A DNA stretch of 64,000 nucleotides, taken from Alkalimarinus alittae (GTDB lineage Bacteria; Pseudomonadota; Gammaproteobacteria; Pseudomonadales; Oleiphilaceae). The translations under genes and the position numbers were made by a program. The stretch is taken from assembly GCF_026016465.1 (NCBI RefSeq), contig NZ_CP100390.1:3971078-4035077 (forward strand), written 5' to 3'. The notes below the pieces were generated by a model. That model did not search any database, had not been told where the DNA came from, and saw only the letters and a list, made by a program, of their open reading frames with translations. The first letter of the stretch is position 1. Each line of letters starts with the position of its first letter. Shown in pieces: positions 17,917 to 33,899 of the stretch.

Positions 17917-17936
17917 ACCTGTCAATTCTGACAGTT
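17917..17936 (-). promoter_or_regulatory. Lux-box-like operator 1
   Basis: ACCTGTCAATTCTGACAGTT is a near-palindrome with arms CTGTCA/TGACAG. On the minus strand a -10-like TATACT begins 31.5 bp from its centre, the same spacing as at the other operators of this island. It would drive the membrane protein gene at 17491-17847, and may also affect the plus-strand genes from 18017. Confidence 0.7.
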
Positions 17937-18208: not shown

Positions 18209-18212
18209 ATAA

Positions 18213-18503: not shown

Positions 18504-18528
18504 CCATTTATAGGAAAGTCGAGGAAGT

Positions 18529-19128: not shown

Positions 19129-19161
19129 TAAAGTTCTGCACTAAGCAAAAAATATTAATAT

Positions 19162-19190: not shown

Positions 19191-19357
19191 CATTGCGCCA
19201 TTCTATACAAAAACAGGAACAACCCAGCAAATAGCGAGACTCCCACAATCATTAGAAGCATCAAGTTTTTTGACTGGAGCAGTGATTTCACAAAAGCCAC
19301 TTCAGATAAAGAATCCCATAAATCTAACATCAGTGCTTTTACTTTTTTTGGAACCAT
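19190..19357 (-). CDS. Small single-span membrane protein after the tolC-like gene
   Basis: A 55-aa frame starts at an ATG 6 nt beyond the tolC-like stop codon and in the same frame, and ends exactly at the terminator hairpin. It has a basic start (MVPKKVKALM), an amphipathic middle and one strong transmembrane helix (LMLLMIVGVSLFAGLFLFLY), with the tail RMAQ. Placement as the last gene of the exporter operon suggests a real, translationally coupled product. Possible roles are immunity or assembly of the exporter; neither can be shown. It is too short for many gene finders. Confidence 0.5.
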   Translation of the reverse strand: MVPKKVKALMLDLWDSLSEVAFVKSLLQSKNLMLLMIVGVSLFAGLFLFLYRMAQ

Positions 19358-19375
19358 CAACCATCAACCATCAAC
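19355..19375. repeat. Tandem 7-bp repeat, three copies, at the end of the tolC-like gene
   Basis: CATCAAC is repeated three times without change. It overlaps the last codons and stop of the tolC-like gene and the start codon of the following small gene. Because the unit is not a multiple of three, slippage would change the C-terminus of the upstream protein and the coupling to the next gene. Confidence 0.8.
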
Positions 19376-20704
19376 CAAGACAAGACTATCTCTATCTACA
19401 ACACCTGCCAGACGCTTTAAGGCAATCACATTACTAACATAACTATACGTTGCATCAATTAAAGTACGCTTTGCCAGAAACATCGCTTTTTGAGCCTGCA
19501 ATACATCCACCGCATTTCTAATGCCCATTCGATACCCAGCTTTTACAGCCTTTAAGGCTTCTTCCTGAGAGTTCACGGTCAACTTTAACATACTCACGGT
19601 CTCCACATCGGCATAAATAGTTCGGAACAATGTTGTCGTGTTTTGCTCAACTTCCCGAATCTTATCCAGATATTTTGTTCTTGCTTCATCCACTCGTAAT
19701 GACGCCTCGCGACTTCGGGAGCTAACGGCCCCACCCTGAAATAATTTCATATTAAGATTTAAAGAAATAGCCGAAGTTTCAGACAATGCCTTACCACGCC
19801 CGCCGGCAGCGGTATCATCAGCAAAATAAGACGCAGAAACACTGACCGTTGGCAGATACTCAGACCTTGCTGCATTTTTATTTTCTTTTGCTGCAGCAAT
19901 ATCAATGTCAGCCACTTTTAATTCTGCATTATTTTGTAACGCTAACGTTTTCCATGACTGCTCATTGGAAGGTTTTATTTCTTCAACGCTAAGTTGGTCA
20001 TACACCCTTTGAACCTCTATATCAGCTCGTCCTGTTAAGCCAATTAGCACTTCAAGCTGAGCTTGCAAGCGGTTATTAGCCTGAATAATTCTCACTCTAA
20101 TACGATCGAGAGCCGCTTTAACCTCATAAACATCCGTCATATTAACCAAGCCCGCTTCAAAATGACGCTGTAGTTGTTCAGATTGTTTTTTAACAGCCCG
20201 TTTCTCTGCTTTCAAACTGGTTAACTCATTCATCTCACGCAAAACATTAAAATAGCTTTTTGTTACTCGAACCATTAAATCCTGCTCAACGATCACCTGT
20301 TCCCACTCTTGTCGATTAAAAAGCGCCTGTCCTTGTTTATAGCGGTACCATTTTTGAGGGTCAAATATCGGCTGATCAAGCTCTGCAGAATAACTATAGG
20401 CATTATAGTCATTAGAGACACCTCCCGTTACTGGCACGGGAAGCCCCCCCGAACTCAATACATTGCCTAAAAAAACATCTTCGTTTGAAGTATAAACTTT
20501 ACGCGTATTACCACTAACAGATAGTGTGGGTAGTAACGCAGCTCTCGACTGAGGCAACACATCTTTCGCTGCCAGAATAGCAAGCGTCTGAGACTTAAAT
20601 TCGGGGTCATGCTGGCGTGCCATATCATAAATTTCAAGTAACGTATGGGCACTAATGTTTAGTGAGGCCGCACAGAGTAGCAGCACTAATAAAATCCTTA
20701 TCAT
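19364..20704 (-). CDS. TolC-like outer membrane efflux protein of the exporter
   Basis: The 446-aa protein forms the outer membrane channel of the type I system. The ATG at 20704 is chosen because it starts a standard signal peptide (MIRILLVLLLCAASLNISA) and follows GGAAGGG; the stop of the ABC gene is 7 bp away. Two repeats of the outer membrane efflux family are visible, with long coiled segments such as EQVIVEQDLMVRVTKSYFNVL and the paired helix region in the second half ending in AKRTLIDATYSYVSNVIALKRLAG. It acts with the upstream fusion protein and ABC transporter. Only the short C-terminus (VVDRDSLVLVDG) looks unusual, overlapping a 7-bp repeat. Confidence 0.93.
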   Translation of the reverse strand: MIRILLVLLLCAASLNISAHTLLEIYDMARQHDPEFKSQTLAILAAKDVLPQSRAALLPTLSVSGNTRKVYTSNEDVFLGNVLSSGGLPVPVTGGVSNDYNAYSYSAELDQPIFDPQKWYRYKQGQALFNRQEWEQVIVEQDLMVRVTKSYFNVLREMNELTSLKAEKRAVKKQSEQLQRHFEAGLVNMTDVYEVKAALDRIRVRIIQANNRLQAQLEVLIGLTGRADIEVQRVYDQLSVEEIKPSNEQSWKTLALQNNAELKVADIDIAAAKENKNAARSEYLPTVSVSASYFADDTAAGGRGKALSETSAISLNLNMKLFQGGAVSSRSREASLRVDEARTKYLDKIREVEQNTTTLFRTIYADVETVSMLKLTVNSQEEALKAVKAGYRMGIRNAVDVLQAQKAMFLAKRTLIDATYSYVSNVIALKRLAGVVDRDSLVLVDG

Positions 20705-20711
20705 TATACAA

Positions 20712-22889
20712 CTACCCTTCCTTGGTTTCCGGTCCTTGTGTTGCAGGCACATCCACAGAACGATTAGCCGAGGCAATCTGCTGAGTAACATCCATTAACT
20801 GTCCTTGCTCAAAAACTAATACCCTATCGGCTGATTGAATGGTTTCTGGTCGGTGAGCAATAATAATCCGTGTAATATCCAATTTTTTAACGGCTTCATT
20901 AACAAAATATTCAAGCTGTGTATCCAAGTGACTGGTCGCTTCATCCAGAAACAAAATTTTGGGTTTACGATAGAGTGCTCGCGCCAGTAATAAACGCTGC
21001 TTTTGTCCGCCAGATAAGGTCGTCCCCATATCGCCCACCAGGCTGTTATAACGCATGGGCATCGCTTCAATATCATGATGAATAGACGCTAACTGACCAC
21101 AATATTCAATTCGTTCAAGATCAGGGGTAGAATCAAAAAAGCAGATATTATCTGCCACCGTGCCCGACAGAAGCTGATCATCCTGCATAACCGCGGCAAC
21201 CTGAGAGCGAAAATTTCGCACACCTGAGCTATCAAGTTCTTTGCCATCAACCAACAAAGTACCGGCAGAGGCTTCAAACAAGCCCATCATCACCTTCATC
21301 AAGGTCGTTTTCCCACAGCCAGAAGGCCCGATAATCGCAACGGACTCACCCTGTGCCACACTCATGCTGACATTTTCAAAAATACAAGGCTCAGACTCAG
21401 AGTAACGATAGCTAATGCCCTTTAGCGCTAAGTTACCTTCGATAGGTTCGCTCCTAACACTCTCAAGCTCTAAGGCTTTTTCTTTTTCAGTTAACGCAAT
21501 ATCTGCAATACGGTTAAGGTGTAACCCCAGCATTTTGAATTCAATTAGTTTTTCAATTAGCGCTACCGTTTTATCAGTGAATTGCCCCTTGTAAGAAATA
21601 AAGGCATATAACATACCCACAGAAAACGCATTATCCAGCACTAACTGCGCACCCAGATAAATTACCAATACATTTTCCAAGCCAAATAACAGGTTATTGA
21701 TGGTGCTATACGCAATGTTCACTTTACCCAAGCGAATACCGGTATTAACGACCTCGGCATAACGGTTTTGCCAAAGTGTTTGACGGTCTGCCTCGCGCCC
21801 GAAAATCTTGATACTCTGGATACCCCGAATACTTTCCATAAAGTTCGAGTCTTCTTTCGCTTTCGCAACAATGCCCTCTTCCGTTAGCTGGCGTAAAGGT
21901 CTATAGAGTGCATAACGAATGATCCCATAAATAGCCACCACCACCGTTACAACAACAGCCAAAACAGGGGCATAAATAATCATCATTACCAAGGTAGTAA
22001 TTGCCATCGCCCCATCAACAATCGCCGTCACCACCCCTGTGGTTAACAGCTCCTGTACTTGGTTCAACGAACCAAAGCGAGACACCACATCACCGATATG
22101 ACGTTTCTCAAAAAAGTCCATGGGCAAACGAACCAAGTGACGAAACAGGTTAACCCCCATTTGAAAACTCAGCATATTACTGATGTGCAAAATCACATAA
22201 GAACGCAGTGCATCAGTACTCAGTTTAATCAGCGCCAGTAATAAGAACCCCCATGCCAGCACCTTGAGTAAGTCTGCATCATGGCTAACAATCACCTCAT
22301 CAACCACTAGCTGCATATAAAACGGGGAAATAAGCGCAAACGCTTGAAGTACAACCGAAAGCAACAAGAGTTGAATTAATCCACGCTTAAGGCCCGAAGC
22401 GTTTCGCCAGAAGTCACTCAAATGCAAGCGCTGCTGCTCTACTTTAGGCTCAAAAGATCGCGTGGGTGTTAACTCCAATGCCACACCCGTAAAGTGTTTT
22501 GACACTTCATCAAAACTCAAAACCCTTTCACCCTGAGCAGGGTCATGGATGGTTATTTTTTGATTACCAACAGACTTCAATACCACAAAGTGGTTCATAT
22601 CCCAGTGCAATACCGCAGGGCGCTGTAATTTATCCATATCACCAATGTCCAGGCGAAGCGCACGAGCAGCCATACCCATTTTGTCAGAGATATCCATCAA
22701 ACTCTTGAGGGTAACGCCTTTTAAAGAAATAGGGTATTTATGACGAAGGCTGGTTAAGTCTGCTTCATAACCATGATAAGCCGCCACCATAGACAAACAT
22801 GCCAGACCACACTCAGCCATTTCTGTTTGCAAAGTTATCGGTAGCGTTTTTCGACCAGAAAATTTCAATAAACTTAAAGAAGCGCTCAT
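20712..22889 (-). CDS. Peptidase-containing ABC transporter (CvaB-type)
   Basis: This 725-aa inner membrane protein cuts the leader after the double glycine and exports the peptide. The N-terminal C39 domain has Q21, C27 (EMAECGLACLSMVAAYHG), H100 (WDMNHFVVL) and D116 (HDPAQGE), so it looks catalytically intact. Six membrane helices span about 170-440. The nucleotide-binding domain has Walker A at about 521-529 (GPSGCGKTT), the signature LSGGQKQR at about 625-632, Walker B ending LFLDEA near 651, and the switch histidine in IIIAHR near 679. Its start overlaps the stop of the fusion protein gene (TAATG), indicating translational coupling. Confidence 0.97.
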   Translation of the reverse strand: MSASLSLLKFSGRKTLPITLQTEMAECGLACLSMVAAYHGYEADLTSLRHKYPISLKGVTLKSLMDISDKMGMAARALRLDIGDMDKLQRPAVLHWDMNHFVVLKSVGNQKITIHDPAQGERVLSFDEVSKHFTGVALELTPTRSFEPKVEQQRLHLSDFWRNASGLKRGLIQLLLLSVVLQAFALISPFYMQLVVDEVIVSHDADLLKVLAWGFLLLALIKLSTDALRSYVILHISNMLSFQMGVNLFRHLVRLPMDFFEKRHIGDVVSRFGSLNQVQELLTTGVVTAIVDGAMAITTLVMMIIYAPVLAVVVTVVVAIYGIIRYALYRPLRQLTEEGIVAKAKEDSNFMESIRGIQSIKIFGREADRQTLWQNRYAEVVNTGIRLGKVNIAYSTINNLLFGLENVLVIYLGAQLVLDNAFSVGMLYAFISYKGQFTDKTVALIEKLIEFKMLGLHLNRIADIALTEKEKALELESVRSEPIEGNLALKGISYRYSESEPCIFENVSMSVAQGESVAIIGPSGCGKTTLMKVMMGLFEASAGTLLVDGKELDSSGVRNFRSQVAAVMQDDQLLSGTVADNICFFDSTPDLERIEYCGQLASIHHDIEAMPMRYNSLVGDMGTTLSGGQKQRLLLARALYRKPKILFLDEATSHLDTQLEYFVNEAVKKLDITRIIIAHRPETIQSADRVLVFEQGQLMDVTQQIASANRSVDVPATQGPETKEG

Positions 22890-24136
22890 TACAACACCCC
22901 TTGCAGGCTATACAGCGGGTCAAGAATCCATTCAACCAGCGTTCGGCTATCAACAATAATATCCGCATCCAGCAACATACCCGCCTGTAGTGGTAAGGCC
23001 TTTCCATAGGCAGAAACCGTCTGTTCATCCAACATCACAGAAATTTTATAAACAGGTTCTTGTAACCTTAAAGGTGAGGGTGCATCGGAAGGAGAAAGAA
23101 TAGACTCAGTAACTTTCATCACCGTACCATCATAAATACCAAAGCGTTGATAAGGAAAGGCCTGATACTGCAACTTCACTGATTGCTCAGTAGAAATGAA
23201 GCCGATAGCACGGCTAGGTACAAACAACTCCGCCTGCAACAATGCCCCTTCAGGCAAAAGATCCAATATTGGCTTATTAGGAACCACTGCCTGCCCTGCG
23301 GTTATTTGCAAACTGGAAACCCGACCACTAACCGGCGCACGAACAATAAAGCTCCGCCGCCCGTCAATTTCAACACGCCGTCGAACCAAATCAATTTTTC
23401 GAGTTTCTAGTTCAGCAATACGCTCTGCACTGCTATCGGGCAGTTGTTCCAGTTCAAATTCAGTTGCCATTAAATCATTCTGACGACTGAGTAACTGACG
23501 GGATATATCGGCGGCCTGCTGGCGGTCTGTTAAATGCTGCTCATATTGTTCTTGGTAGCGGGTTTCAGCAACAAGGGCATCATCTGCCAGTAACTTCATC
23601 GCTTTATACTGTTTTTCTGATAACAGAAGTCGCTCTTTTTGAATACTTTGTTGTTCGATAAGTTGCTTAATTTCTCCGTGAGCTCCTTGAATACGCGCCT
23701 TTAATCGCTTTGTTTCAGAGCTTAACCGTAGCGCTTCCCGCTCAATACGTGCATCAATTACCACTTCTTCCTTATTCAATTGTTGCAGAATAACAGAATC
23801 AATATCATCGCCACTGCTTAATACCGTTTCATCAACCACGGTAAACAGTATTTGCCCTTCTTCTACCTTCTCACCTTGTTTAACATGAACCTGAGCATAA
23901 ACCCCTTCTCTCGGAGCGTAGACTTTTACCAAACCAAGATCAGGGGCCAAATACCCTTTTACAGACTCTTTACGGGCATAACTTCCCATAAATAGAAGGC
24001 TTATCAATAAAATTGCAAACAAAATCGCAACGGCACTCAGCACATAATAAGAGAGCGGCTGGGAAATAATTAAATCACCCCATAAACGTTCCCGTTGGTT
24101 TTCAATCACTTCTTCCCTGAACAACGAATCAGACAT
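22889..24136 (-). CDS. HlyD/CvaA-type membrane fusion protein
   Basis: The 415-aa periplasmic adaptor links the ABC transporter to the TolC-like channel. A short cytoplasmic N-terminus is followed by one membrane helix (about residues 29-52), a lipoyl-like half motif (YAPREGVYAQVHVKQGEKVEEGQ), a long coiled-coil hairpin (about 120-240) and the second lipoyl half (IVRAPVSGRVSSLQITAGQAV), then a beta-barrel domain. It is the first gene of the exporter operon; GGGAAG precedes the ATG. The operator at 24205-24224 with CATAAT on the minus strand is its probable promoter region. Confidence 0.95.
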   Translation of the reverse strand: MSDSLFREEVIENQRERLWGDLIISQPLSYYVLSAVAILFAILLISLLFMGSYARKESVKGYLAPDLGLVKVYAPREGVYAQVHVKQGEKVEEGQILFTVVDETVLSSGDDIDSVILQQLNKEEVVIDARIEREALRLSSETKRLKARIQGAHGEIKQLIEQQSIQKERLLLSEKQYKAMKLLADDALVAETRYQEQYEQHLTDRQQAADISRQLLSRQNDLMATEFELEQLPDSSAERIAELETRKIDLVRRRVEIDGRRSFIVRAPVSGRVSSLQITAGQAVVPNKPILDLLPEGALLQAELFVPSRAIGFISTEQSVKLQYQAFPYQRFGIYDGTVMKVTESILSPSDAPSPLRLQEPVYKISVMLDEQTVSAYGKALPLQAGMLLDADIIVDSRTLVEWILDPLYSLQGVL

Positions 24137-24204
24137 AACTTCCCTATTGATTCTGTGGACAACATTCTTTGGGGGTGATTATGATTGAGAAAAGAGGGGA
24201 AGGT

Positions 24205-24224
24205 AACTGTCAGAAGTGACAGGT
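24205..24224 (-). promoter_or_regulatory. Lux-box-like operator 2, exporter operon
   Basis: Read on the minus strand the site is ACCTGTCACTTCTGACAGTT. A -10-like CATAAT (5 of 6 to consensus) lies at 24183-24178, 31.5 bp from the operator centre. It should control the fusion protein-ABC-TolC operon. Confidence 0.75.
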
Positions 24225-24229
24225 ACAAA

Positions 24230-24249
24230 GCCTGTTACTTCTGACAGTT
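24230..24249 (+). promoter_or_regulatory. Lux-box-like operator 3, precursor 1
   Basis: The site GCCTGTTACTTCTGACAGTT is back to back with operator 2, centre to centre 25 bp. On the plus strand TAGGAT at 24271-24276 is the -10 candidate, 31.5 bp from the centre. It should drive the precursor at 24346. Confidence 0.75.
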
Positions 24250-24390
24250 ATTAAGCTTGAAAAATTCAAGTAGGATATTTTGGCCATCTGAGAAAGCGCG
24301 CTCAAGAATGGAATTTACTCAAAAAATTAATTAAGGATAATGACAATGAAAGAACTACGCTTGAATGAGATTGAAGATGTAAGTGGTGGA
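24231..24390 (+). repeat. Promoter-leader cassette, copy 1
   Basis: These 160 bp (operator, -10, untranslated leader and 15-codon leader peptide) recur at 27247-27406 with about six differences. Similarity stops right after the two glycine codons, so the cassette delivers a promoter and export leader but not the mature peptide. Confidence 0.9.
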
Positions 24391-24588
24391 GCATGGTATG
24401 ACAATGCAGCTACAGGCTTTACATGGGGTGGAATGCTCGGGACCGTTGGAGGAGCAGCCTTTACTGGGTCAACAATTGGCGCAACAAGAGGAGGTTTAAT
24501 AGGAGGAGCGTTAGGTTTTTCAGCAGGCTTAGGGTACGGTATAGGCACTGTAGGCTATAATGCATTCTCTAACTGGTACTATAACTAG
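24346..24588 (+). CDS. Class II microcin-like precursor with glycine-zipper core
   Basis: The leader MKELRLNEIEDVSGG closely resembles class II microcin leaders (CvaC is MRTLTLNELDSVSGG). Cleavage after GG would release a 65-aa core starting AWYDNAATGF. The core is rich in Gly and Ala with repeated GxxxG spacings (GGMLGTVGGAAFTG, then GGLIGGALGFSAGLGYG) and ends in aromatic residues (NAFSNWYYN), as in membrane-inserting bacteriocins. The ATG at 24346 is preferred to that at 24340 because AAGGA lies 8 nt upstream, the same spacing as at the other precursors. A hairpin and then a probable immunity gene follow. Confidence 0.85.
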   Translation: MKELRLNEIEDVSGGAWYDNAATGFTWGGMLGTVGGAAFTGSTIGATRGGLIGGALGFSAGLGYGIGTVGYNAFSNWYYN

Positions 24589-24599
24589 TTAGCTAAATT

Positions 24600-24628
24600 A
24601 AGGCGGGAATAGTTTTCACTCCCGCCTT
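24600..24628 (+). terminator. Intercistronic hairpin after precursor 1
   Basis: AAGGCGGGA and TCCCGCCTT form a 9-bp stem with an 11-nt loop but no T-run follows. It probably protects or partly terminates the precursor transcript, letting a smaller amount continue into the immunity gene. Confidence 0.6.
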
Positions 24629-24666
24629 CAATCCATACTAGTATTCACTCCATTCAAGGTATACCG

Positions 24667-24945
24667 ATGACCCCTTCAACCGTTTCAAAAATAGTCGCTA
24701 CAGGTGGTGTAATATCATTTTTCTTATCTATCTATAACTTTTCAGAAGATAAGCCTATTTTTGCCTGCTTCCTTTTGGGGGGGGTATTTATATCTTATAT
24801 AACATTCAAAACACCCGAAATGGTACTGATAAAAAGTGCCAAAGAGTTAGATCCTTTTGTTCCTAAATTACAAAGAAACCCGTATTTCTATGCAGGCTTA
24901 GCTCTAATGGTCATTCCGGGAGTTATTTCTATCATGACTGTTTAA
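24667..24945 (+). CDS. Small membrane protein, probable immunity protein
   Basis: The 92-aa protein has three likely membrane helices (about residues 12-24, 30-46 and 72-90) joined by a charged stretch with EMVLIKSAKELDPF. AAGG lies 7 nt before the ATG. It directly follows the glycine-zipper precursor and no other function is apparent, so it is the best candidate for that peptide's immunity protein. Decayed pieces of a second copy of this gene lie at 28160-28332, which supports its being part of a mobile precursor-immunity module. Confidence 0.6.
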   Translation: MTPSTVSKIVATGGVISFFLSIYNFSEDKPIFACFLLGGVFISYITFKTPEMVLIKSAKELDPFVPKLQRNPYFYAGLALMVIPGVISIMTV

Positions 24946-24983
24946 ACACCTCGTTTTATCAACCCACTAAAAACACATTCATT

Positions 24984-25003
24984 ACCTGTTATTTCTGACA
25001 GTT
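24984..25003 (+). promoter_or_regulatory. Lux-box-like operator 4
   Basis: ACCTGTTATTTCTGACAGTT is followed by CAGGAT at 25025-25030, 31.5 bp from the operator centre. It lies 93 bp before the start of the frameshifted precursor at 25097, nearly the same distance as at the intact precursors. Confidence 0.7.
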
Positions 25004-25096
25004 ACTAACGTCCAAGTAGTCTTGCAGGATATTTACAGCCGCGCGGTTAAGCGGTGTTGTGACTCTCTCATAAATCACCTGCAAAGGACATAAATA

Positions 25097-25245
25097 ATGA
25101 AACATCCATTTGATATGAACTCAAAACAACTACAACCCGTTACAGACTCGCTGCAAGAACTTGATAACTCTCAACTCTTGCTTATTTTGGAGGGACTTTT
25201 ATAGGCGACACTTTTAACGATGGTCAAATCTGGCTCAATAATTAA
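25097..25245 (+). pseudogene. Precursor peptide gene, apparently frameshifted at the cleavage site
   Basis: An ATG with AAAGGA 8 nt upstream opens a 35-codon frame whose end reads DSLQELDNSQLLLILEGLL, then stop at 25204. If one T is restored in the T-run at 25185-25188, the frame continues as SQLLLIFGG followed by TFIGDTFNDGQIWLNN and a stop at 25243-25245. The restored form has the hydrophobic spacing and GG of a longer (33-residue) double-glycine leader. So this looks like a precursor broken by loss of one base, or a sequencing error. Its operator and ribosome binding site are intact. Confidence 0.6.
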
Positions 25246-25269
25246 TAGCCAATAACCATTATTTTGATG

Positions 25270-25307
25270 CGATATATTTAAATCAAAATATTTCGATTTA
25301 AATATCG
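25270..25307. terminator. AT-rich inverted repeat, possible terminator
   Basis: CGATATATTTAAATC and GATTTAAATATCG form a long AT-rich stem with a 2-nt bulge and a 10-nt loop. It lies between the broken precursor (+) and the end of the half-size M16 gene (-), so it may end either transcript. Confidence 0.4.
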
Positions 25308-25334
25308 AGGTCAATAGAATGAAACAGCTTACGC

Positions 25335-26786
25335 CTAAAAATAATCAGCACCGCCTTTAAATTCAACCAAGTTATTTATCACCTGAGTTTTATCATCTGT
25401 TACCCTTCCCATATTTTTATGCTGAGAATATACAACTAGCCTACTGCTCGACTCAGCAAATAAAAACCCATGCAAGAATGCTAAGAAATCAGCCTTACTT
25501 AATTGATTAATAAATTCAATTACCCGCTCTTTCTGCAAATAAGGAGGAAAATTTAATGCTATTTGCATCCAATAGAAATCAGACCTAGCCTTAAGATTAA
25601 CCTCCTTAGTTAGAAATGAACGTAAAGCATATTTAAACTGACTAAAATCGTCTTCACTTAAATTAGCAATACGTGCGTCCATACCTTTTAAAACTGATTC
25701 TAACTCTTTTTGTATTTCTAGCGCAGTCTGGTTAGGTGATTGCGCATAAATAGCAAGGCCGTCAATATTATAAGCTTGTAGAGGTGACGCGCCGACGATA
25801 TAACCCATTGACTTTTCTGTACGTAATATATTAAACAACTCTGACTGCAACATGTAACCCAATAAACGAAGCGGCACAATTTCTTTAAGAGTATTGTGTG
25901 TAACCTGACTGTAAATCACTACAGCGGTATCAGGTTGATCTTCATTTAATAGTCTGAGCCAGTTAACCGATTGTGGTAACTTAATTACCTTATATGGGGG
26001 TATTACTGCGCCATTTTTGGCTATGCTTAACATGCTTTTTATCTGCCCAGCCATCCGAATGGCCATTTTCTTATCCAAATCACCGTGAGCCAAACCAGTC
26101 ACCTGTAACTGAGACAAAAAACGATATTGATAGTCACGAAGGTCCTTAAGGCTAATTTGTGCCAATGCATCGTGTAATGAATGCATACTCCATGTTGAAG
26201 GGTCCAAGGTAGCTATTATTTCCCCCATAACCTTATTTATCGGCTGGCTAGCCTGGAATGCCTGATAAGACCTTTCCATTTGCCCTTTAGCAAGCACGAA
26301 TTGCTGCTCAGTAAATTGATTACTCACTATTGTAGTTAACATTTTTTCTAAGAGTTCAGGCTGAGGTTTAGTCATACCAGACAGAGAAACACTAAGCCCC
26401 CGGTGAATTGGGTGAACATTATATAACACGCCAGCATCACGAAATTGGCTTGAAAGTGGCAATAATGCCTCATTAATCACTATTGAATAAAGGATATTCA
26501 TAGCTGACATTTCAGCATTCATTTTTACCGTAGCAGGTTCCAGCATAAAATAGACATTGGTTTTTGGAACCAAATAGACATCATCTTGCTTGTACCACAA
26601 AGTAAATCCCTTTACCTGCTCTATCACGGCAGGGGCACGGTTTTTATTTGCTTCATGTAACGATGGCTTACTGAAGTCCGCATTATTACACCATGCAAGA
26701 GGCACCACTCCCATTATTAATACAAAGCTAAGCACTCCCTTCCAGCATTTATTAAAAACAAACATCCATTTAGTATTATCGCTCAT
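25335..26786 (-). CDS. Secreted half-size M16 peptidase homologue without zinc motif
   Basis: The 483-aa protein starts with a signal peptide (residues about 14-33, VLSFVLIMGVVPLAWC) and then aligns by eye along its whole length with the C-terminal half of the 981-aa M16 lipoprotein at 30044-32989: shared blocks include FTLWYKQDD, SSQFRDAGV, LSLSGMT.PQP, ARSDFYW and TEKSMGYIVGA. The N-terminal catalytic half with HxxEH is absent, and no zinc motif is present. In M16 enzymes inactive halves build the closed chamber, so this may be a partner subunit or a decoy. GGAG lies 6 nt before the ATG. Confidence 0.8.
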   Translation of the reverse strand: MSDNTKWMFVFNKCWKGVLSFVLIMGVVPLAWCNNADFSKPSLHEANKNRAPAVIEQVKGFTLWYKQDDVYLVPKTNVYFMLEPATVKMNAEMSAMNILYSIVINEALLPLSSQFRDAGVLYNVHPIHRGLSVSLSGMTKPQPELLEKMLTTIVSNQFTEQQFVLAKGQMERSYQAFQASQPINKVMGEIIATLDPSTWSMHSLHDALAQISLKDLRDYQYRFLSQLQVTGLAHGDLDKKMAIRMAGQIKSMLSIAKNGAVIPPYKVIKLPQSVNWLRLLNEDQPDTAVVIYSQVTHNTLKEIVPLRLLGYMLQSELFNILRTEKSMGYIVGASPLQAYNIDGLAIYAQSPNQTALEIQKELESVLKGMDARIANLSEDDFSQFKYALRSFLTKEVNLKARSDFYWMQIALNFPPYLQKERVIEFINQLSKADFLAFLHGFLFAESSSRLVVYSQHKNMGRVTDDKTQVINNLVEFKGGADYF

Positions 26787-26851
26787 TGTCAGCTCCGGTT
26801 AGGAAATTTAGCATTCTTACATGAGTGTACAAAAACCAGGCGCATATACCT

Positions 26852-26871
26852 AGCTGTCATTATTGACAGTT
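26852..26871 (+). promoter_or_regulatory. Lux-box-like operator 5
   Basis: AGCTGTCATTATTGACAGTT has perfect CTGTCA/TGACAG arms. It lies between the half-size M16 gene (-) and a precursor gene (+). A plus-strand TAACCT (26893-26898) is at the standard distance; on the minus strand TACACT (26829-26824) is one base further. It could serve both genes. Confidence 0.65.
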
Positions 26872-26978
26872 ACAAGAATAAATATATTTCTATAACCTTT
26901 ATTTTGTGCATAGATAAAAGCACATATTTAAAAAGTAACTATTATCGAAAATCTTATTGATAATTAAGGATATTTAAC

Positions 26979-27167
26979 ATGCAAGAATTAACAAATGTAC
27001 AAGTAAATGAAATTTCTGGCGGCGCATTATACGCTTTAAATGATACTCAACTGAGCAATATTTGGGTTAGCTATGGACAGTTCAACTGGGCTCCTAGCTA
27101 TTCATTTTCATATAACGACTATTCGTCTCCATACACATCTTACTCTAGCTCATCTTGGACTTGGTAA
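26979..27167 (+). CDS. Double-glycine precursor with aromatic/serine-rich core
   Basis: The leader MQELTNVQVNEISGG precedes a 47-aa core that begins ALYALNDTQLSNIW and ends in a run of Ser, Tyr and Trp (SYSSSSWTW). TQLSNIW recurs at the same place in the precursor at 28907. AAGGA is 8 nt before the ATG. The core has no cysteine and little charge, unlike the glycine-zipper peptide, so it represents a second peptide type. No immunity gene directly follows. The function is inferred from the leader and context only. Confidence 0.8.
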   Translation: MQELTNVQVNEISGGALYALNDTQLSNIWVSYGQFNWAPSYSFSYNDYSSPYTSYSSSSWTW

Positions 27168-27245
27168 AGTATTATTGTGACGCTTAAAGCGTAGCTGCCC
27201 CTTTATTGGTGTAGTTGTCATTATCTACAAATAAACCATCACAAA

Positions 27246-27265
27246 ACCTGTTACTTTTGACAGTT
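27246..27265 (+). promoter_or_regulatory. Lux-box-like operator 6
   Basis: ACCTGTTACTTTTGACAGTT with TAGGAT at 27287-27292 repeats the layout of operator 3 and belongs to the second promoter-leader cassette. Confidence 0.75.
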
Positions 27266-27406
27266 ATTAAGCTTGAAAAATTCAAGTAGGATATTTTGGC
27301 CATCTGAGAATGCGCGCTCAAGAATGGAATTTACTCAAAAAATTAATTAAGGATAATGAAAATGAAAGAACTAAGCTTGAATGAGATTGAAGATGTAAGT
27401 GGCGGC
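27247..27406 (+). repeat. Promoter-leader cassette, copy 2
   Basis: Second copy of the 160-bp direct repeat, 3,016 bp from the first. It covers the operator, promoter, untranslated region and the leader codons through the double glycine, with about six substitutions. Confidence 0.9.
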
Positions 27407-27544
27407 TGGGTTGCCCCATTCTTAGTAGGGACATTCGTTTCACCATATATGTACGATGCAGTTGGTGGATTGAATGGTATAAATAATTATATCAACAAGA
27501 GTTGGATTTCAATGCAGTCATCTGTCAATTACTTGCTCAGATAA
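27362..27544 (+). CDS. Class II microcin-like precursor with duplicated leader
   Basis: The leader MKELSLNEIEDVSGG differs from that of precursor 1 by a single residue, but the 45-aa core is unrelated: it starts WVAPFLVGTFVSPYMYDAVG and ends INNYINKSWISMQ and SSVNYLLR. The core is moderately hydrophobic with aromatic residues and a basic end. The ATG at 27362 is preferred over 27356 on ribosome binding site spacing (AAGGA at 8 nt). A hairpin and a membrane protein gene follow, as after precursor 1. Confidence 0.8.
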   Translation: MKELSLNEIEDVSGGWVAPFLVGTFVSPYMYDAVGGLNGINNYINKSWISMQSSVNYLLR

Positions 27545-27570
27545 AGCCGAAAGTATATAACTTCCCAGCT

Positions 27571-27611
27571 ATAAACGATTGGCGTAGTCAATATCTAGGT
27601 CAATCGTTTAT
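27571..27611 (+). terminator. Intercistronic hairpin after precursor 3
   Basis: ATAAACGATTG and CAATCGTTTAT make an 11-bp stem with a 19-nt loop and no T-run. It occupies the same place as the hairpin after precursor 1, between a precursor and a membrane protein gene. Confidence 0.55.
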
Positions 27612-27644
27612 CTATTATAAGATATCAAACTAAAGAAGATAGAT

Positions 27645-28085
27645 TTGAATAAATTATCATTGCGTGATTTCTTTTATTTTTTGAGGGAGATATTTAAAGT
27701 TAATGCCGTACACAAAAAAATCGCTTTCGCTCTCATTCTGTGTACGGCTATTGTATTAGATGGTTCTGTAAATAACTTCCGATCTGAATGTGACTGCGGA
27801 AGCATTACACAGATTATATTTGGCGCTTTTCCTAGCTTCATTGCGGCTTACTTTGTCCCGTTAGCGTTCTTAGCTTTGCGGGGTTTTAAAGACGCGCTGA
27901 AAAACGCACTCGCGATGACCGCAGGCTTCCTCATCTATGAATTTGCTCAGCTTTTTATAATCGATACTTATTTTGATATATACGATGTTATTTCTACTCT
28001 ATTAGGCTTTCTAATATTTTATTTTACTTTTTCGACCCTCAAGATTATTAATAGGTTGCGGAAGGAAAAACAAGCATTATCGTAA
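27645..28085 (+). CDS. VanZ-like membrane protein, candidate immunity
   Basis: The frame uses a TTG start (AGAAGA upstream) and gives 146 aa with about four membrane helices. The segment IYEFAQLFIIDTYFDIYDV, followed by LLGFLIFY, has the Glu...Gln...Asp..Asp arrangement of VanZ-like proteins. These are small membrane proteins linked in some bacteria to resistance against cell-wall or membrane-active agents. Its position right after a precursor and hairpin makes immunity plausible. The start codon and family call are both tentative. Confidence 0.5.
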   Translation: MNKLSLRDFFYFLREIFKVNAVHKKIAFALILCTAIVLDGSVNNFRSECDCGSITQIIFGAFPSFIAAYFVPLAFLALRGFKDALKNALAMTAGFLIYEFAQLFIIDTYFDIYDVISTLLGFLIFYFTFSTLKIINRLRKEKQALS

Positions 28086-28159
28086 GTTTGTTTAAAGCAT
28101 CGTTTGCCTTTATATAACCTTAAATATTAGTGAAACATATTTCGTCACCTGATATATAA

Positions 28160-28332
28160 AACACCCTTTAAACGTTTCAAAAATAGTCGCTACCGATAGC
28201 GTATTTTTATAACAAGGACCCCATTAACTGTTGCAAAGGAATTGATAAATTTATAAAAATAATATTCAAAACACCCGCAATGATACTGATAAAAAGCGCA
28301 AAAGAACTAGAGCCTTTTGTTCCTGAGTTGTA
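28160..28332 (+). pseudogene. Decayed remnants of the small immunity-like gene
   Basis: AAACGTTTCAAAAATAGTCG and the following bases match the start of the gene at 24667 (CCGTTTCAAAAATAGTCGCT). A second start-like piece (GACCCCATTAACTGTTGCAAA, 28216 onwards) matches GACCCCTTCAACCGTTTCAAA there. The 3' part, from ATTCAAAACACCCG to CCTTTTGTTCCTGAGTTGTA, matches its middle region and reads IKSAKELEPFVPEL. No continuous frame remains. So at least one, perhaps two, further copies of the immunity gene once existed here. Confidence 0.75.
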
Positions 28333-28337
28333 AGCGC

Positions 28338-28580
28338 TCAAACCTCAACTTCAGACAACTTAACGCCATATTTATTATTCAAAATAATTGATACAGATGC
28401 AGAAGCACAACTTGAATCAATTTTACACAGAGTGTGAGATTCAGTATTTCCTTTTTCTATTTCAGAGTAGGGTAAATTGAATTTATCATATTCAAAGTTA
28501 GTATACTGATCTTCATTTATGGCTTTCAGTGACATGCATGAAGTAAGTAGAAATGCTAAAACAACCAAGAGTACTCTCAT
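28338..28580 (-). pseudogene. Truncated C39-like lipoprotein
   Basis: The 80-aa frame has a lipoprotein signal (VVLAFLLTSC) and aligns with the first 40% of the lipoprotein at 18529: DQYTNFEYDKFNL against NQYPDFDS, CKIDSSCASASVSIILNNKYG against CQADFSCASSSISTVLKRKFG, and KLSEVEV against KISELEV. It then stops, where the full-length gene continues for about 120 residues. The break adjoins the immunity-gene remnant at 28332, so a rearrangement probably joined two partial genes. The active-site glutamine is also changed to lysine. Confidence 0.75.
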
Positions 28581-28906
28581 AATTTTATTCCATTACCTAT
28601 CCAATATACGCTGCATTAATAGCCAAATAACCCTACTTAATTAAAATTCTGTATGGCACATAGCCCATAACTGCATTTGCCGCATGATAATGCAGAATAT
28701 GCAGTAGTCAAGAATCGCCAATTTTTACAGGAAATTAACTCGATGATTATCAAAAAATTTAAAAACCTATAACAATATACTTTTGAAACAAAGAGTTAAC
28801 TATCATTAAGAACCATTACATCCTCACATTATTTTTTAGATAACTGTTCTGCTGAAGGGAATTAATCCTATCGGCAAAACAACAAACAAATCTTTAAGGA
28901 ATAAAA
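28581..28906. other. AT-rich intergenic stretch, no clear gene
   Basis: This stretch between the truncated lipoprotein and the 46-aa precursor holds only very short frames. I found no lux-box-like operator in it, so the precursor at 28907 may use a different or degenerate promoter. A weak inverted repeat (CTGCAT ... ATGCAG, near 28675-28705) is present. Confidence 0.5.
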
Positions 28907-29047
28907 ATGAAAACGTTAAACAAGACTGATATAGAGCAAGTATCAGGCGGTGTTCTCTTACCCTTAAGCAATACCCAACTAAGCAATATCTGGGGACCTA
29001 GTTACGATTATGGTTTTAATAGTTATGTATCACCACTTAATTGGTAA
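28907..29047 (+). CDS. Double-glycine precursor with short aromatic core (46 aa)
   Basis: The leader MKTLNKTDIEQVSGG is followed by a 31-aa core beginning VLLPLSNTQLSNIW and ending FNSYVSPLNW. The TQLSNIW segment is shared at the same distance from the cleavage site with the precursor at 26979, so the two belong to one peptide family. AAGGA lies 6 nt before the ATG. The gene is too short for usual gene-finding cutoffs. No immunity gene follows; the next gene is the convergent luxR-type gene. No lux-box-like site was seen upstream. Confidence 0.78.
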   Translation: MKTLNKTDIEQVSGGVLLPLSNTQLSNIWGPSYDYGFNSYVSPLNW

Positions 29048-29118
29048 AGCAGCTATGGGTTGCATGCTTTCTATATGCAACCCTCTTTTCACTCCATCCT
29101 AAACATGCAGTCTCGCTA

Positions 29119-29907
29119 CTACTCAACAAACTCCACCTTATCCCTCAGCACAAACGATTTAATAACCCCTAAATCAATCGCTACCGCCACCGCCTGAGCT
29201 CTACTCACCACCCCTAGCTTCTTGAAAATATTCTTAACATGAAAGTTAACGGTTCGCTCTGTGATGCTTAGCACCTGACTAATATCCCAGGTACTTTTAC
29301 CTTGTTTAATCCACTCTAATACGGCAATTTCTCGCTTAGATAATAGACACTGATTACCTGTGCTCCGACCAAGCTGTCGAACGGCATGAAAAAACACCGG
29401 TAACAAGCATTTTAAAACCTGCTTATCAGAAGGTTTTAATTTTTGTTCGGTGATTGAGAACTGAAAACTATAGACCACTCTTGACTCTGTTAAAGAGTCT
29501 GGCAGATCAACCTTAATAGCTTGTAAAATACCTATATGCTCATGTATTTCATAGCATGGAACCTCTCTATTTATAACCTTCTGCAGGTTGTTCAAGCAAG
29601 TTAAGCAATGAGTATCAGGTTTTTCAACATTCCAATATTCTTCTGTTGCGTGCTCAAGAAAAAACACGCCCGTTGCGGATGTTTGATAGCGGTACTTCAA
29701 GCAATAATAGTCTGATATGATATTATTTTTTTTGAGTATCCAGTAACTTGCATCACTAATTGGTATTCGTTTGTTAAGCGAATTAAGTAAACTGGCTACG
29801 CCCTCGCCCTCGCCCTCGCCCTCGCCCTCGCCCTCGCCCTCGCCCTCGCCCTCAAGGCTATCTGTAATAAATGTAGAAATAAACCCTATATCCTTATCAT
29901 CAAACAC
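29119..29907 (-). CDS. LuxR-family regulator with Glu-Gly repeat tract
   Basis: The C-terminal 65 residues form a LuxR/GerE DNA-binding domain (SKREIAVLEWIKQGKSTWDI, then TERTVNFHVKNIFKKLGV). The N-terminal about 190 residues resemble the sensor part of LuxR-type proteins in size, but I do not see the full set of autoinducer-contacting residues. The GTG at 29907, with AGGGGA 5 nt upstream, gives 262 aa, a normal family length; the longer frame would need a TTG. A (Glu-Gly)9 tract lies near residue 18. No luxI gene is in the window. It follows the large M16 gene and is the obvious candidate to bind the seven lux-box-like sites. Confidence 0.85.
   Translation of the reverse strand: MFDDKDIGFISTFITDSLEGEGEGEGEGEGEGEGEGVASLLNSLNKRIPISDASYWILKKNNIISDYYCLKYRYQTSATGVFFLEHATEEYWNVEKPDTHCLTCLNNLQKVINREVPCYEIHEHIGILQAIKVDLPDSLTESRVVYSFQFSITEQKLKPSDKQVLKCLLPVFFHAVRQLGRSTGNQCLLSKREIAVLEWIKQGKSTWDISQVLSITERTVNFHVKNIFKKLGVVSRAQAVAVAIDLGVIKSFVLRDKVEFVE
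29799..29852. repeat. Perfect hexanucleotide microsatellite (CGCCCT)9
   Basis: Nine identical copies of CGCCCT lie inside the luxR-type gene and encode nine Glu-Gly pairs. Its composition (5 of 6 G/C) contrasts strongly with the AT-rich island. The unit equals two codons, so changes in copy number alter linker length without breaking the frame. Confidence 0.97.
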
Positions 29908-29952
29908 TCTATTCCCCTGAGCAAGTCCCTTATTTATACAGCAATAAATTAA

Positions 29953-29983
29953 CCTGTTAGTGTATATGAACACCTCTAACAGG
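29953..29983. promoter_or_regulatory. Split inverted repeat upstream of the luxR-type gene
   Basis: CCTGTTAG and CTAACAGG are separated by 15 bp, 46 bp upstream of the GTG start. The arms resemble operator half-sites (ACCTGTTA) but with wider spacing, so this may be an autoregulatory site or an RNA hairpin. Confidence 0.45.
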
Positions 29984-30043
29984 CTAAAATATAAGTCCCT
30001 TACAAACAAGTACAAATTAGACTAAAGCCATAGAGCGCACCCT

Positions 30044-32989
30044 CTACTCTGTGACATACTTAGCATTCCCTTTAAATACAGCCAAGTCACTGATTATTTT
30101 AAATTTATTACCCGTGGTCATACTTTTTGTTGCTGGTTGAGAGTGTATTACTAAGCCATTACTGGTTTCCCCAGATAAGAGCTGATGACAGAAAGCAACG
30201 AAGTCTGCTTTACTTAGATTTTCTAACGTTTTAATTAACGACTCTTTCTGTAAAAAAGGCGGGGATTTTAAGGCTATTTTCGTCCAGTAAAAGTCAGAGC
30301 GTGCTTTTAGGTTGGGCTCTTGGGTTAAGAATGAGACTAATGCTTTTTTAACATTATCAAACACCTCATCACTCAAGGCCTCAATCTTAGCATTCATTCC
30401 GTTTAATTCTATTTCTAGCTCTTTTTGTACGTCTGTTGCTGATAGATTGGGGGACTGGGCATAAATCGCTAAACCATCGACATTATAAACGGGCATTGGG
30501 GCGGCCCCTACAATATAGCCCATAGAATGTTCTGTACGCAGGGTATTAAATAACTCTGATTGCAGCAAATAACCTAATAATCGAACAGAAGCAGCCTCTT
30601 TAACCGTACCCTGTTGAACCTGACTATAAAGTACCACGGCAACATTACCGCTATTATCACCTTCAAGTGTTCTTAACCAGCGCTCATCTTGTGGTAGGTT
30701 TATCACTTGTGGCTGAGGCATTGCAGCACCATTTTCAGTTATTTTCAGTACTTTTTTTACCTGATTGCCTAACTGTAAAGCTTGGCTTTGATTAAGGCTG
30801 CCATGAGATAAACCCGTGACCTCCAACTGAGATAAAAAAGCGGTTTGGTAGGCACGAACATCTTCAATACTAAGTGATTTAAGCTCTGCTTTAAGTTCAC
30901 TCACCTCCCAAACTAAAGGGTCTAACGTGACAGTAATCGCGTTCATCACCTTATCAATGGGCTGGCTCGAATTATATTGCTGGTACATTGATGATAAATT
31001 TTGTTTAGCGATCGTAAAATTCTGCTCAGTGAACGAGTGACTCGTCACAGCCTTTAACATGATATCGAGTAATGCAGGTTGTGGTTCAGTCATGCCCGAA
31101 AGCGAAAGATTAATACCTCTTTTAGTAGGATGAATAGTGTGTTGCACGCCGGCATCTCGAAACTGGCTTGATGAGGATAGAAGTACTTCATTGATCATCA
31201 TGATATAAAGCCCTTTCATTGCAGTCACCTTGGGGCTGACCTTTAGCGCAGATGACTCCAGCATGAAATAGGTGTCCGTTTTAGGCACCTTAAATGTGTC
31301 ATCTTGCTTGTACCACATTGCAAAGCCTTGCTCTTGGTTGATTACGTTCGGCTCAGCACCGCCCGTTGGAGCATTAGACATATCCATTTCAACCGACTCA
31401 AGCGTGGGGGGAGCCGAGTGTTCAGCGATTGACGTGATATTTACGGTTGGTAAAGATAAGTCGCTAACGAATGATTGCGTTTGCCATGGAGCGATAGTTT
31501 CAACACTCATCGTCGAAAGGCTATATTGATGTCCAGACCATTCATCCCGTTGCTCAAGCGGCTTGCCTGTACCACTTAATGAAATCAATACGTTTTCAGG
31601 GGTCAGGTAATTGAAATATTCATTGATAACTGATGCATCGTAACGCACCATCAAACGGGGCCCTGAGAACACATCTATTGCAGGATAACTTTGCAAGTTA
31701 TTGGCTAATTCTCCCACATAAGCAATGGCGGGAATTTTCTCCTGAAAACGAAATAGTTCAGCCACACGCTGATGCTGCTGGCTATAACGTTCTTCAGAAA
31801 TACCCTCTTGTTTTATTAACCTTAAATACTGAAATACCGCACCCACTATGTCAGTATAGTGATTCATCCCTTCTTCGCTTAGTGCAAACTGAATATCAAA
31901 GGTTGCGTAGCTTCGAGTGCTTAAGCGACTACCTGCTATCATATTATTGACCCAGCCTTTCTCTTTCAATCGAGCTTTAAGGCCGCCTTTATCGTTGTCG
32001 TTCAATATATTAGCAATAAATTCTTCTGGTTTTTCCTGATAATGCGTCGCAAAAGCGGGCACAGAAAATGATAAGGTCATTTGTGGCTGAGGGTTATTCA
32101 ACTCCATCGTTAAAAGCTGCGGCTGTTTTGATTTTAAGAACAAAGAGGGCTCAATAACGACGTCACCTACTTCAAGGGTGGCCCTTTTAGGTGTCGCGGC
32201 TTTAGTTCGGATGGCTGAAAAATTCTTCTCTACTTGTTTTTGCAGGTTTTCTATCGGTTCTTTCCCCAACACAACCAGCGTCATTGCATTAGCGGCATAA
32301 TAGGTTTTATAAAAATCGACCACACTATTTTTAATTGGGTTAATATTATCTCCCGCTAAAGTTTGGCTACTACCCGCTTCAAACCGAGAAAATGAGTGCT
32401 CAGGATGAACAGCAGGTTTCATTAGCGACATACTAACCCAACCGTCATTACCTTTTAGCATTTGATACTCGGCATCGACGACTTTGAGTTCGCTATCAAT
32501 ATAATGTTCATCAAACGTAGGTGATATAAAGAATTGAGAAAAACGATCTAATGCCGGCTCTAAACTGGCTGCACTCACTTCAAAAAAGAAATTTGTTTGA
32601 TCTGCCGTCGTGTAGGCATTATACATACCTCCATTTTGCGTCATAAACTGCTTGAAGCCATGAGGTGACGGGTATTTTTCAGAACCTAGGAATAACATGT
32701 GTTCAACAAAATGAGCCAAGCCCAAGCTGTCATCAGGGTCTTGCTCACTCCCTACCCCTACAGCCAGAGCTGCGGCCGAGCGTTCGGTTTCAGGGTCTGA
32801 AACAAGAAGAACTTTGAGATTATTTTTTAGCTCAACGCTTTTATAGCTTCGCCTATCTTGTGGTGGTGTATGGACAGGGCTGTTTGTTTTGGCTGCTTGA
32901 GGTGTTGGGACTGCTTGGAGGTTTTCTGTTTCGCTACAAGCACTGACTAGAATAACGAAAGGTAAAATCCATTTTGTATTACAAAGCAT
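30044..32989 (-). CDS. M16 metallopeptidase lipoprotein (pitrilysin-like)
   Basis: The protein has the zinc motif HFVEH at about residues 93-97, followed by the downstream glutamate region (ELKVVDAEYQMLKG), so it should be an active M16 zinc peptidase. The ATG at 32989 is chosen because GGAG lies 5 nt upstream and it begins a clean lipoprotein signal (ILPFVILVSAC, Cys18), giving 981 aa; the ATG at 33019 lacks a ribosome binding site. Four homologous subdomains are expected, and the C-terminal half matches the half-size protein at 25335-26786. Pitrilysin relatives degrade short peptides, so it may process or destroy the island's peptides in the periplasm. It carries its own operator. Confidence 0.9.
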   Translation of the reverse strand: MLCNTKWILPFVILVSACSETENLQAVPTPQAAKTNSPVHTPPQDRRSYKSVELKNNLKVLLVSDPETERSAAALAVGVGSEQDPDDSLGLAHFVEHMLFLGSEKYPSPHGFKQFMTQNGGMYNAYTTADQTNFFFEVSAASLEPALDRFSQFFISPTFDEHYIDSELKVVDAEYQMLKGNDGWVSMSLMKPAVHPEHSFSRFEAGSSQTLAGDNINPIKNSVVDFYKTYYAANAMTLVVLGKEPIENLQKQVEKNFSAIRTKAATPKRATLEVGDVVIEPSLFLKSKQPQLLTMELNNPQPQMTLSFSVPAFATHYQEKPEEFIANILNDNDKGGLKARLKEKGWVNNMIAGSRLSTRSYATFDIQFALSEEGMNHYTDIVGAVFQYLRLIKQEGISEERYSQQHQRVAELFRFQEKIPAIAYVGELANNLQSYPAIDVFSGPRLMVRYDASVINEYFNYLTPENVLISLSGTGKPLEQRDEWSGHQYSLSTMSVETIAPWQTQSFVSDLSLPTVNITSIAEHSAPPTLESVEMDMSNAPTGGAEPNVINQEQGFAMWYKQDDTFKVPKTDTYFMLESSALKVSPKVTAMKGLYIMMINEVLLSSSSQFRDAGVQHTIHPTKRGINLSLSGMTEPQPALLDIMLKAVTSHSFTEQNFTIAKQNLSSMYQQYNSSQPIDKVMNAITVTLDPLVWEVSELKAELKSLSIEDVRAYQTAFLSQLEVTGLSHGSLNQSQALQLGNQVKKVLKITENGAAMPQPQVINLPQDERWLRTLEGDNSGNVAVVLYSQVQQGTVKEAASVRLLGYLLQSELFNTLRTEHSMGYIVGAAPMPVYNVDGLAIYAQSPNLSATDVQKELEIELNGMNAKIEALSDEVFDNVKKALVSFLTQEPNLKARSDFYWTKIALKSPPFLQKESLIKTLENLSKADFVAFCHQLLSGETSNGLVIHSQPATKSMTTGNKFKIISDLAVFKGNAKYVTE

Positions 32990-33047
32990 AAGTACTCCGA
33001 TAAAAACCTTATAAAGCATCAGAGTACTAAAATATAAACAGGGGAAT

Positions 33048-33067
33048 AACTGTCAATACTAACAGTT
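33048..33067 (-). promoter_or_regulatory. Lux-box-like operator 7
   Basis: On the minus strand the site reads AACTGTTAGTATTGACAGTT. A weak -10-like TACTCT (33026-33021) lies at the standard 31.5 bp. It precedes the large M16 gene and, through read-through, the luxR-type gene. Confidence 0.65.
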
Positions 33068-33125
33068 GACTAAGCAATCATAAGCGTTCATCACCCATCT
33101 AAGGATAATGAACTAGATGGGTCGT

Positions 33126-33899
33126 TTAAATCTCGATATCATAATCCATGATAACCGGCGCATGATCAGAAAAACGTGTACCCGACTCAATGTAACCATC
33201 TAGAATGGCGTTACGCAAACCGGGGGTCACGATCTGATAGTCAGTACGCCAACCGGCTTGCTTTCTCCAGCCTTTCGCCCACTCTGGCCACCACGTGTAC
33301 TGTTTCTTCTCTTTATTCACTTCACGGAACGCATCAATATACTCAAGTGAATCAAATACTTCGTCAAACCATGCACGCTCATGAGGCAAGAAGCCAGATA
33401 CTTCCATTTTATGGTATTTGCTACTGGCATCAGTCACTAAGTGAGCGGTTTGCATATTGGCACAGAAAATAAACTGCCGACGCTTGCGCAGTGTTTTTTG
33501 CAAATGCTCCATAAAGGCATTCATGAAACCGTCTTTTTCCGCTTGCTTCTCATCATTACCTAATGCACAAGGCGCCAACATGGCAGCGACACTAACGTTA
33601 TCAAAGTCTGCCTGTATAAAACGACCCTGCCGATCTGCCGGCTCATACGCAAAACCATACATGATCGCTTTCGGAAAATGCTTTGAATAGATGCCTACAC
33701 CACCGTCTTCTGGGTTTTCGCCATCAATAAAATAGGCTTCATACCCTTCTGGGTGAAAAAGTTCATCATCGAACTCGTAAGTACGTGCCAAAAGATCCTG
33801 AACACACACAACATCGGCATCCAGCTCTTTCATCCATTCGAAAAAACCATTTTCAGCGGCCTGTTTTAGGCCGTTAACACTAATCGATACTACTCGCAT
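33126..33899 (-). CDS. crc: Catabolite repression control protein Crc-like
   Basis: The 257-aa protein belongs to the exonuclease III/AP endonuclease fold family and is closest to Crc by gene context and sequence: it begins MRVVSISVNGLKQAAENGFF, has VCVQD where active exonuclease III has LQE, and contains GFLPHERAWFDEVF. In pseudomonads Crc stabilises the Hfq-RNA complex in carbon catabolite repression, acting without nuclease activity. The neighbours rph and pyrE are those found around crc there. The C-terminal SDHAPVIMDYD is retained. This gene marks the right border of the island. Confidence 0.85.
   Translation of the reverse strand: MRVVSISVNGLKQAAENGFFEWMKELDADVVCVQDLLARTYEFDDELFHPEGYEAYFIDGENPEDGGVGIYSKHFPKAIMYGFAYEPADRQGRFIQADFDNVSVAAMLAPCALGNDEKQAEKDGFMNAFMEHLQKTLRKRRQFIFCANMQTAHLVTDASSKYHKMEVSGFLPHERAWFDEVFDSLEYIDAFREVNKEKKQYTWWPEWAKGWRKQAGWRTDYQIVTPGLRNAILDGYIESGTRFSDHAPVIMDYDIEI

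Follow-up and report, generated by a model that had tools for sequence, protein, structure and literature searches.

Class II microcins leave the cell, as reviewed in PMC9746304, through a C39-peptidase ABC exporter with HlyD and TolC components, and the verified precursors have 75–120 aa. The locus analysed here lies in a 64,000-nt stretch of Alkalimarinus alittae (NZ_CP100390.1, positions 3,971,078 to 4,035,077, forward strand; "the window", in whose coordinates all positions are given) and holds two very small ORFs for peptides with double-glycine (GG) leaders, precursors 1 and 2. It shares with the microcin systems of that account the GG leader, the three-part exporter and neighbours with immunity-like genes, and it differs from them in cores that are poor in Gly and Ala, aromatic and 31–47 aa long, and in that no cognate immunity gene was found. 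In Neisseria gonorrhoeae, too, GG peptides and a C39-family protein share an acquired island (nap), which has NapP/NapF where this locus has a C39-ABC exporter (PMC11798529). We give about an even chance to the reading that the two ORFs are precursors of C39-exported, bacteriocin-like peptides and belong to a LuxR-type regulon within a class II microcin-like island. Their family is real, new and very small, has an unusual conserved core and belongs to a known type of system; it adds a very short, aromatic, cysteine-free group, with its exporter and a predicted switch, to the few Gram-negative GG peptides.

The initial annotation had called a 62-aa precursor at 26979 and a 46-aa precursor at 28907, and our coordinates and lengths agree with both (Table 1). 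It had also called the leaders different, and MQELTNVQVNEISGG (precursor 1) and MKTLNKTDIEQVSGG (precursor 2) are indeed identical at only 5 of 15 positions. Residues 13–15 are SGG in all three members of the family, and the bacteriocin signal model TIGR01847 scores precursor 2 at 17.2 bits against a cut-off of 15.7 (E = 0.0056). A cut after SGG would release the 47- and 31-residue cores that had been proposed, with computed average masses of 5507 Da and 3546 Da. The shared LxxTQLSNIW is present in both cores (LNDTQLSNIW in precursor 1, LSNTQLSNIW in precursor 2), though not directly behind the cleavage site as had been stated, since it begins at core residue 5 (L) and TQLSNIW itself at residue 8; both cores end in Trp. 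The common seven-residue run (core residues 8–14) was reached in 0 of 3000 shuffled core pairs, among which the longest common run was 6, seen once. Neither core contains Cys, and Tyr, Phe and Trp together make up 28% and 19%, as the description of cysteine-free aromatic tails had it. Gly and Ala account for 9% and 6% of the two cores, so the distinction drawn earlier from the Gly/Ala-rich microcins stands. What changes is the context, as both genes lie within a lux-box-like regulon that itself includes a microcin-like peptide rich in Gly and Ala, next to an immunity-like gene. A Pfam search with the two window peptides gave nothing at E ≤ 1, and NCBIfam on five cores alone gave only weak, unrelated rows.

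A profile built from the two peptides and run against 163 family genomes found a third member, a 44-aa ORF in a sister species of the same genus (G001; E = 3.7e-9). The proposed family was to fall if homologues existed nowhere, and it survives because the sister species carries one. The third core, ALVPMTNQQMSNYWISYQPQVPFFMFSRW, has 29 aa, 3% Gly+Ala, the motif version QQMSNYW and a C-terminal Trp. The three cores have in common a hydrophobic residue at core position 5, four motif residues (Gln, Ser, Asn, Trp) and the C-terminal Trp. The sister-species leader matches precursor 2 at 10 of 15 positions and precursor 1 at 6 of 15, and its gene combines the surroundings of both window genes: like 28907 it adjoins the LuxR gene, and like 26979 it is divergent from an M16 gene with a box between. 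The claim of a new family thus gains a homologue in a second species and linkage to a C39-ABC exporter, and loses its breadth, with only three members in two species found.

No convincing further relative came from the other searches. The two-peptide profile matched 34 of the 163 family genomes at E ≤ 1, and only the genome of origin and the sister species fell below 0.04; with a three-peptide profile, 4 of 369 class genomes gave hits at E ≤ 0.01, namely the genome of origin and three at 0.004–0.008. Searched as a DNA pattern, the motif occurs in 2 of 163 family genomes, the genome of origin (2 sites) and G097, where the match lies outside any listed ORF and was treated as chance. No relative was obtained by tblastn from genome_contigs (70 pattern matches) or viral_contigs (67), precursor 2 gave nothing at E ≤ 1 against plasmids, and precursor 1 nothing at E ≤ 1 against phages. 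In PHROGs precursor 1 hit one family at E = 0.2 and the other two peptides none. PADLOC on 8 proteins returned no match, and the papers searched mention neither TQLSNIW nor QQMSNYW. Exporter relatives at E ≤ 1e-200 occur in 4 of 163 family genomes; GG peptides were noticed in G091 and G160 (contigs partly short), none of them with the motif.

The island that holds both window genes is flanked by rph and an exonuclease gene. It also encodes a LuxR-type regulator, M16 peptidases, two further GG peptides and, for export, the C39-peptidase ABC exporter, HlyD and TolC (Table 1). In three other genomes of the genus (G002, G003, G004) the exonuclease gene and rph are directly adjacent, with 0 boxes between them; of the 5 genus genomes, 2 therefore carry the island. 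The sister species has the order pyrE, exonuclease, M16, LuxR, peptide, second M16, immunity-like plus microcin-like, HlyD, C39-ABC, TolC-like, rph, and the window island adds further peptide genes and a number of broken copies to this common frame. The part with the peptides is rich in A+T (32–39% G+C at 24–29 kb vs 42–46% across most flanks), and Rfam found no family in 17400–33200. GG leaders of the C39 type on all three peptides, together with genes for an exporter, HlyD and a TolC-like protein in the island and at the equivalent place in the sister species, argue for the bacteriocin-like reading. The homologue in the sister species, the purely synonymous differences in the seven shared codons of the window genes, the clustering of the boxes and the LuxR model, all given below or above, count in the same direction.

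Table 1. Features of the island in the window (positions 5' to 3' on the forward strand).
Feature	Position	Strand	Remarks
Box	17919..17934	.	5' of 18017/18213/18529 gene group
TolC-like outer membrane protein	19364..20791	-	named by reading its sequence alone
C39-peptidase ABC exporter (PCAT), 725 aa	20712..22889	-	Pfam/NCBIfam; 93% identical in sister species
HlyD-type membrane fusion protein	22889..24136	-	Pfam/NCBIfam
Two boxes, starts 24207 and 24232	24207..24247	.	between HlyD (-) and peptide 24340 (+)
Microcin-like GG peptide, 82 aa, 42% Gly+Ala	24340..24588	+	
Small membrane protein	24667..24945	+	immunity-like by position
Box	24986..25001	.	5' of broken GG-peptide gene (about 25098-25250)
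M16 peptidase C-terminal half, no HxxEH	25335..26786	-	54% identical to C-terminal half of 30044-33019
Box CTGTCATTATTGACAG	26854..26869	.	between precursor 1 and divergent M16 fragment; ATG is 110 bases from box end
GG-leader precursor 1, 62 aa	26979..27167	+	leader 1-15, core 47 aa
Box	27248..27263	.	5' of peptide 27356
Second GG peptide, 62 aa	27356..27544	+	core differs from 24340
GG-leader precursor 2, 46 aa	28907..29047	+	leader 15, core 31 aa
Terminator-like hairpin	29057..29083	+	10 pairs then TCTTTT; begins 10 bases past precursor 2 stop
LuxR-type regulator	29119..29907	-	likely GTG start at 29907; candidate box binder
Pitrilysin-like M16 peptidase, full-length	30044..33019	-	HFVEH at residue 103
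Box	33050..33065	.	5' of full-length M16 peptidase

The boxes are copies of the palindrome CTGTNANNNNTNACAG (CTGT-N8-ACAG). The Vibrio fischeri lux box, given as ACCTGTAGGATCGTACAGGT in PMC4444344, has the same CTGT-N8-ACAG spacing and differs in its outer bases (TAA...TTA). Nine sites occur in the 4.25 Mb genome, seven of them in the island within a 15 kb stretch, compared with 2 in the genome for the pattern written backward. The sister species has 8 sites (control 3), of which 3 lie in its island, at promoters matching those of the window (M16, peptide/M16, HlyD/microcin), and 5 outside. Of the 7 sites outside both islands, 5 fall inside ORFs or a ribosomal-protein-like small frame common to both genomes, the other two are in the sister species, and a recognisable GG-peptide gene stands beside 0 of the 7. 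Both precursor 1 and its sister-species relative are preceded by a box; the 256 bases upstream of precursor 2 contain none, the best partial match having 7 of 10 specified bases. Hexamers resembling a -10 element at the expected distance are at chance level, as at least 4 of 6 bases match in about 48% of random positions.

The regulator and the boxes are co-located, and from this we infer that the LuxR-type protein binds them. It has a LuxR/GerE DNA-binding domain (PF00196, E = 2.7e-21) and is 58–59% identical between the window and the sister species. Relatives were found in 2 of 163 family genomes at E ≤ 1e-30 and in 1 of 390 order genomes at E ≤ 1e-28, the genome of origin itself, and a scan of genome_contigs with the N-terminal part gave 68 pattern matches and no relative. 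The AlphaFold model, whose confidence is modest (pLDDT 58), resembles the LuxR-type quorum receptors RhlR, CviR, SdiA, QscR and TraR, which account for 6 of the 7 Foldseek matches at E ≤ 0.001, at low TM-scores (0.21–0.34); GAF domains match it as well as quorum receptors do (Z 9.3 each). Unlike those receptors, its N-terminal half has no Pfam match, to an autoinducer-binding domain or otherwise, and the island has no AHL synthase gene. Within the gene, nine CGCCCT hexamers (29799–29853) encode a Gly-Glu run that is missing in the sister-species protein; the repeat is in frame and therefore would alter the protein's length and not switch the gene off.

If the TQLSNIW peptides were not weapons but pheromones that induce the island, as the inducing peptides of class II bacteriocins do, they would act by feedback on the LuxR-type regulator or through an unlinked receptor following M16 trimming. 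This would explain why the peptide genes adjoin the regulator gene in both species, why the peptides are short and have no immunity gene of their own, why the motif is conserved although the microcin-like cores of the window and the sister species are unlike each other, and why a boxed promoter precedes precursor 1. However, the annotated island ORFs include no histidine kinase, the tails differ greatly between the paralogues, and we know of no LuxR-type protein that binds a peptide. A small-molecule signal is possible instead, because weak, partial matches to AHL synthase (PF00765, positions 6–102 of 183, in frames of about 260–300 aa) occur in 5 of 5 genus genomes, outside the island and also in the three genomes that have none. 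We consider a pheromone role unlikely; if true, it would be a peptide signal tied to a LuxR-type regulator.

Under the bacteriocin-like reading, the precursor would be made in the cytoplasm and cut behind the glycine pair (residue 15) by the C39 domain of the exporter, and the resulting peptides of 47 and 31 residues, rich in aromatic residues, Ser and Asn, would leave through HlyD and TolC. The LuxR-type protein would act through the boxes and probably co-induces the exporter, precursor 1, both of the remaining GG peptides and the M16 peptidases. The pattern L-xx-[TQ]-Q-[LM]-S-N-x-W would be the segment under selection, most likely the functional contact region, next to a variable tail, and the peptides would most likely act outside the cell on related bacteria, alone or together with the other GG peptides. 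Periplasmic M16 peptidases under the same control would limit self-exposure by clearing or trimming the peptides, a role we suggest because M16 partners of small peptides have precedents (PMC8960859). The M16B pairs that mature lanthipeptides in that source likewise consist of one HxxEH partner and one without, beside small precursors; those here are of the pitrilysin type, have signal sequences assigned by eye and stand in an island where no lanthipeptide enzymes were seen. The M16 half at 25335–26786 is secreted-looking, in frame and boxed, and might be the non-catalytic partner of the full-length enzyme.

Several observations count against this assignment. The M16 copy adjoining precursor 1 has no active site, precursor 2 has no box, 5 of the 8 sister-species sites lie outside the island, and the LuxR model is of modest quality. 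Neither TQLSNIW gene is directly followed by an immunity-like gene; in the island such a gene was recognised only beside 24340, where the protein is 61% identical to its counterpart beside the sister-species microcin-like gene, and genes of this kind are hard to recognise. Behind 27356, the gene for a 146-aa membrane protein (27645–28085) that weakly matches a VanZ-like family (E = 0.00019) is a possible immunity gene.

Broken neighbours also speak for an island in flux, and with it for the proposal that the TQLSNIW genes are relics, duplicated toxin genes decaying in a rapidly shuffling island and serving no present function. Besides the M16 half, the broken copies comprise a decayed immunity-like copy (28190–28330), a truncated second C39-like copy (28338–28580) and the GG gene near 25098, and the lack of a box before precursor 2 would fit as well. 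Against this, the TQLSNIW codons differ between the two genes at three third positions, all synonymous, and are otherwise identical. Both frames are intact, an AAGGA-like, ribosome-binding-like sequence lies a few bases 5' of each start, and the terminator-like hairpin follows precursor 2 (promoter-like sites in the same scan showed no excess, 11 vs a shuffle mean of 11.4). The sister-species homologue is also intact and has a box. We judge decay quite improbable.

The core motif can itself be compared with a leader. C39 peptidases hold the leader as a short helix whose Leu-12, Leu-7 and Val-4 enter hydrophobic pockets, with tolerance at -3 and a consensus of Leu(-12)-X3-Glu(-8)-Leu(-7) (PMC6363468). 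In exactly this spacing the core motif has hydrophobic residues at -12, -7 and -4 and Gln at -8; at -2/-1 it has VS, GP and IS, not GG, GA or GS. A low-confidence structure model places helices at 6–13 and 22–28. Resemblance to leaders exceeded that of shuffled cores for both window peptides (p = 0.0004 and 0.0008) and the sister-species peptide (p = 0.045), with three control cores at 0.77, 0.82 and 0.49; when the glycine positions were included the values were 0.07, 0.005 and 0.14. Natural segments of the same length reached the score in 18 of 673 and 6 of 1047 cases for the window peptides and 227 of 1115 for the sister-species peptide, and did so more often when scored with three leaders from other genera (38/673, 171/1047, 471/1115) or with the island leaders minus the peptides' own (162/673, 54/1047, 478/1115). 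Against natural segments the resemblance is thus moderate for the window peptides and absent for the sister-species peptide. The likeness of the motif to a further double-glycine leader that lacks the glycines is a lead, not a result, but it alters how the motif noted in the initial annotation may be read, with support from the shuffles and weakly from natural segments.

A motif of this kind, retained by the mature peptide as a second recognition leader minus the glycines, would bind C39 grooves uncut, whether in the producer's or a competitor's exporter or in the C39-like lipoprotein of the island. This lipoprotein (18529–19128, FilB/FapD-like, behind a box) has Arg at the position of the catalytic His, a residue kept by 7 of the 7 sequences compared, and it would offer a non-catalytic groove. 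The pockets, the consensus, the shuffles and the helices are in line with such mimicry; the natural segments, the weaker values with glycine positions counted and the sister-species island, which has no lipoprotein of the 18529 type, tell against it, and we regard it as distinctly doubtful. Combined with the bacteriocin-like reading, in which a mature exported peptide would bear an uncleavable leader copy and work by filling C39 or C39-like grooves, it is highly improbable. It may take the form of an internal block of a rival's peptide exporter, a throttle on the producer's own, or docking on the C39-like lipoprotein, and if true would be a novel mode of action for a secreted peptide.

In the broken gene at about 25098–25250, read by eye, a stretch resembling a leader (ELDNSQL) and one resembling a GG core are in different frames. 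Finally, 165 nt of upstream DNA and leader before the GG peptides 24340 and 27356 (24225–24389 vs 27241–27405) are 96% identical, a pattern as though cores had been exchanged behind a single leader.
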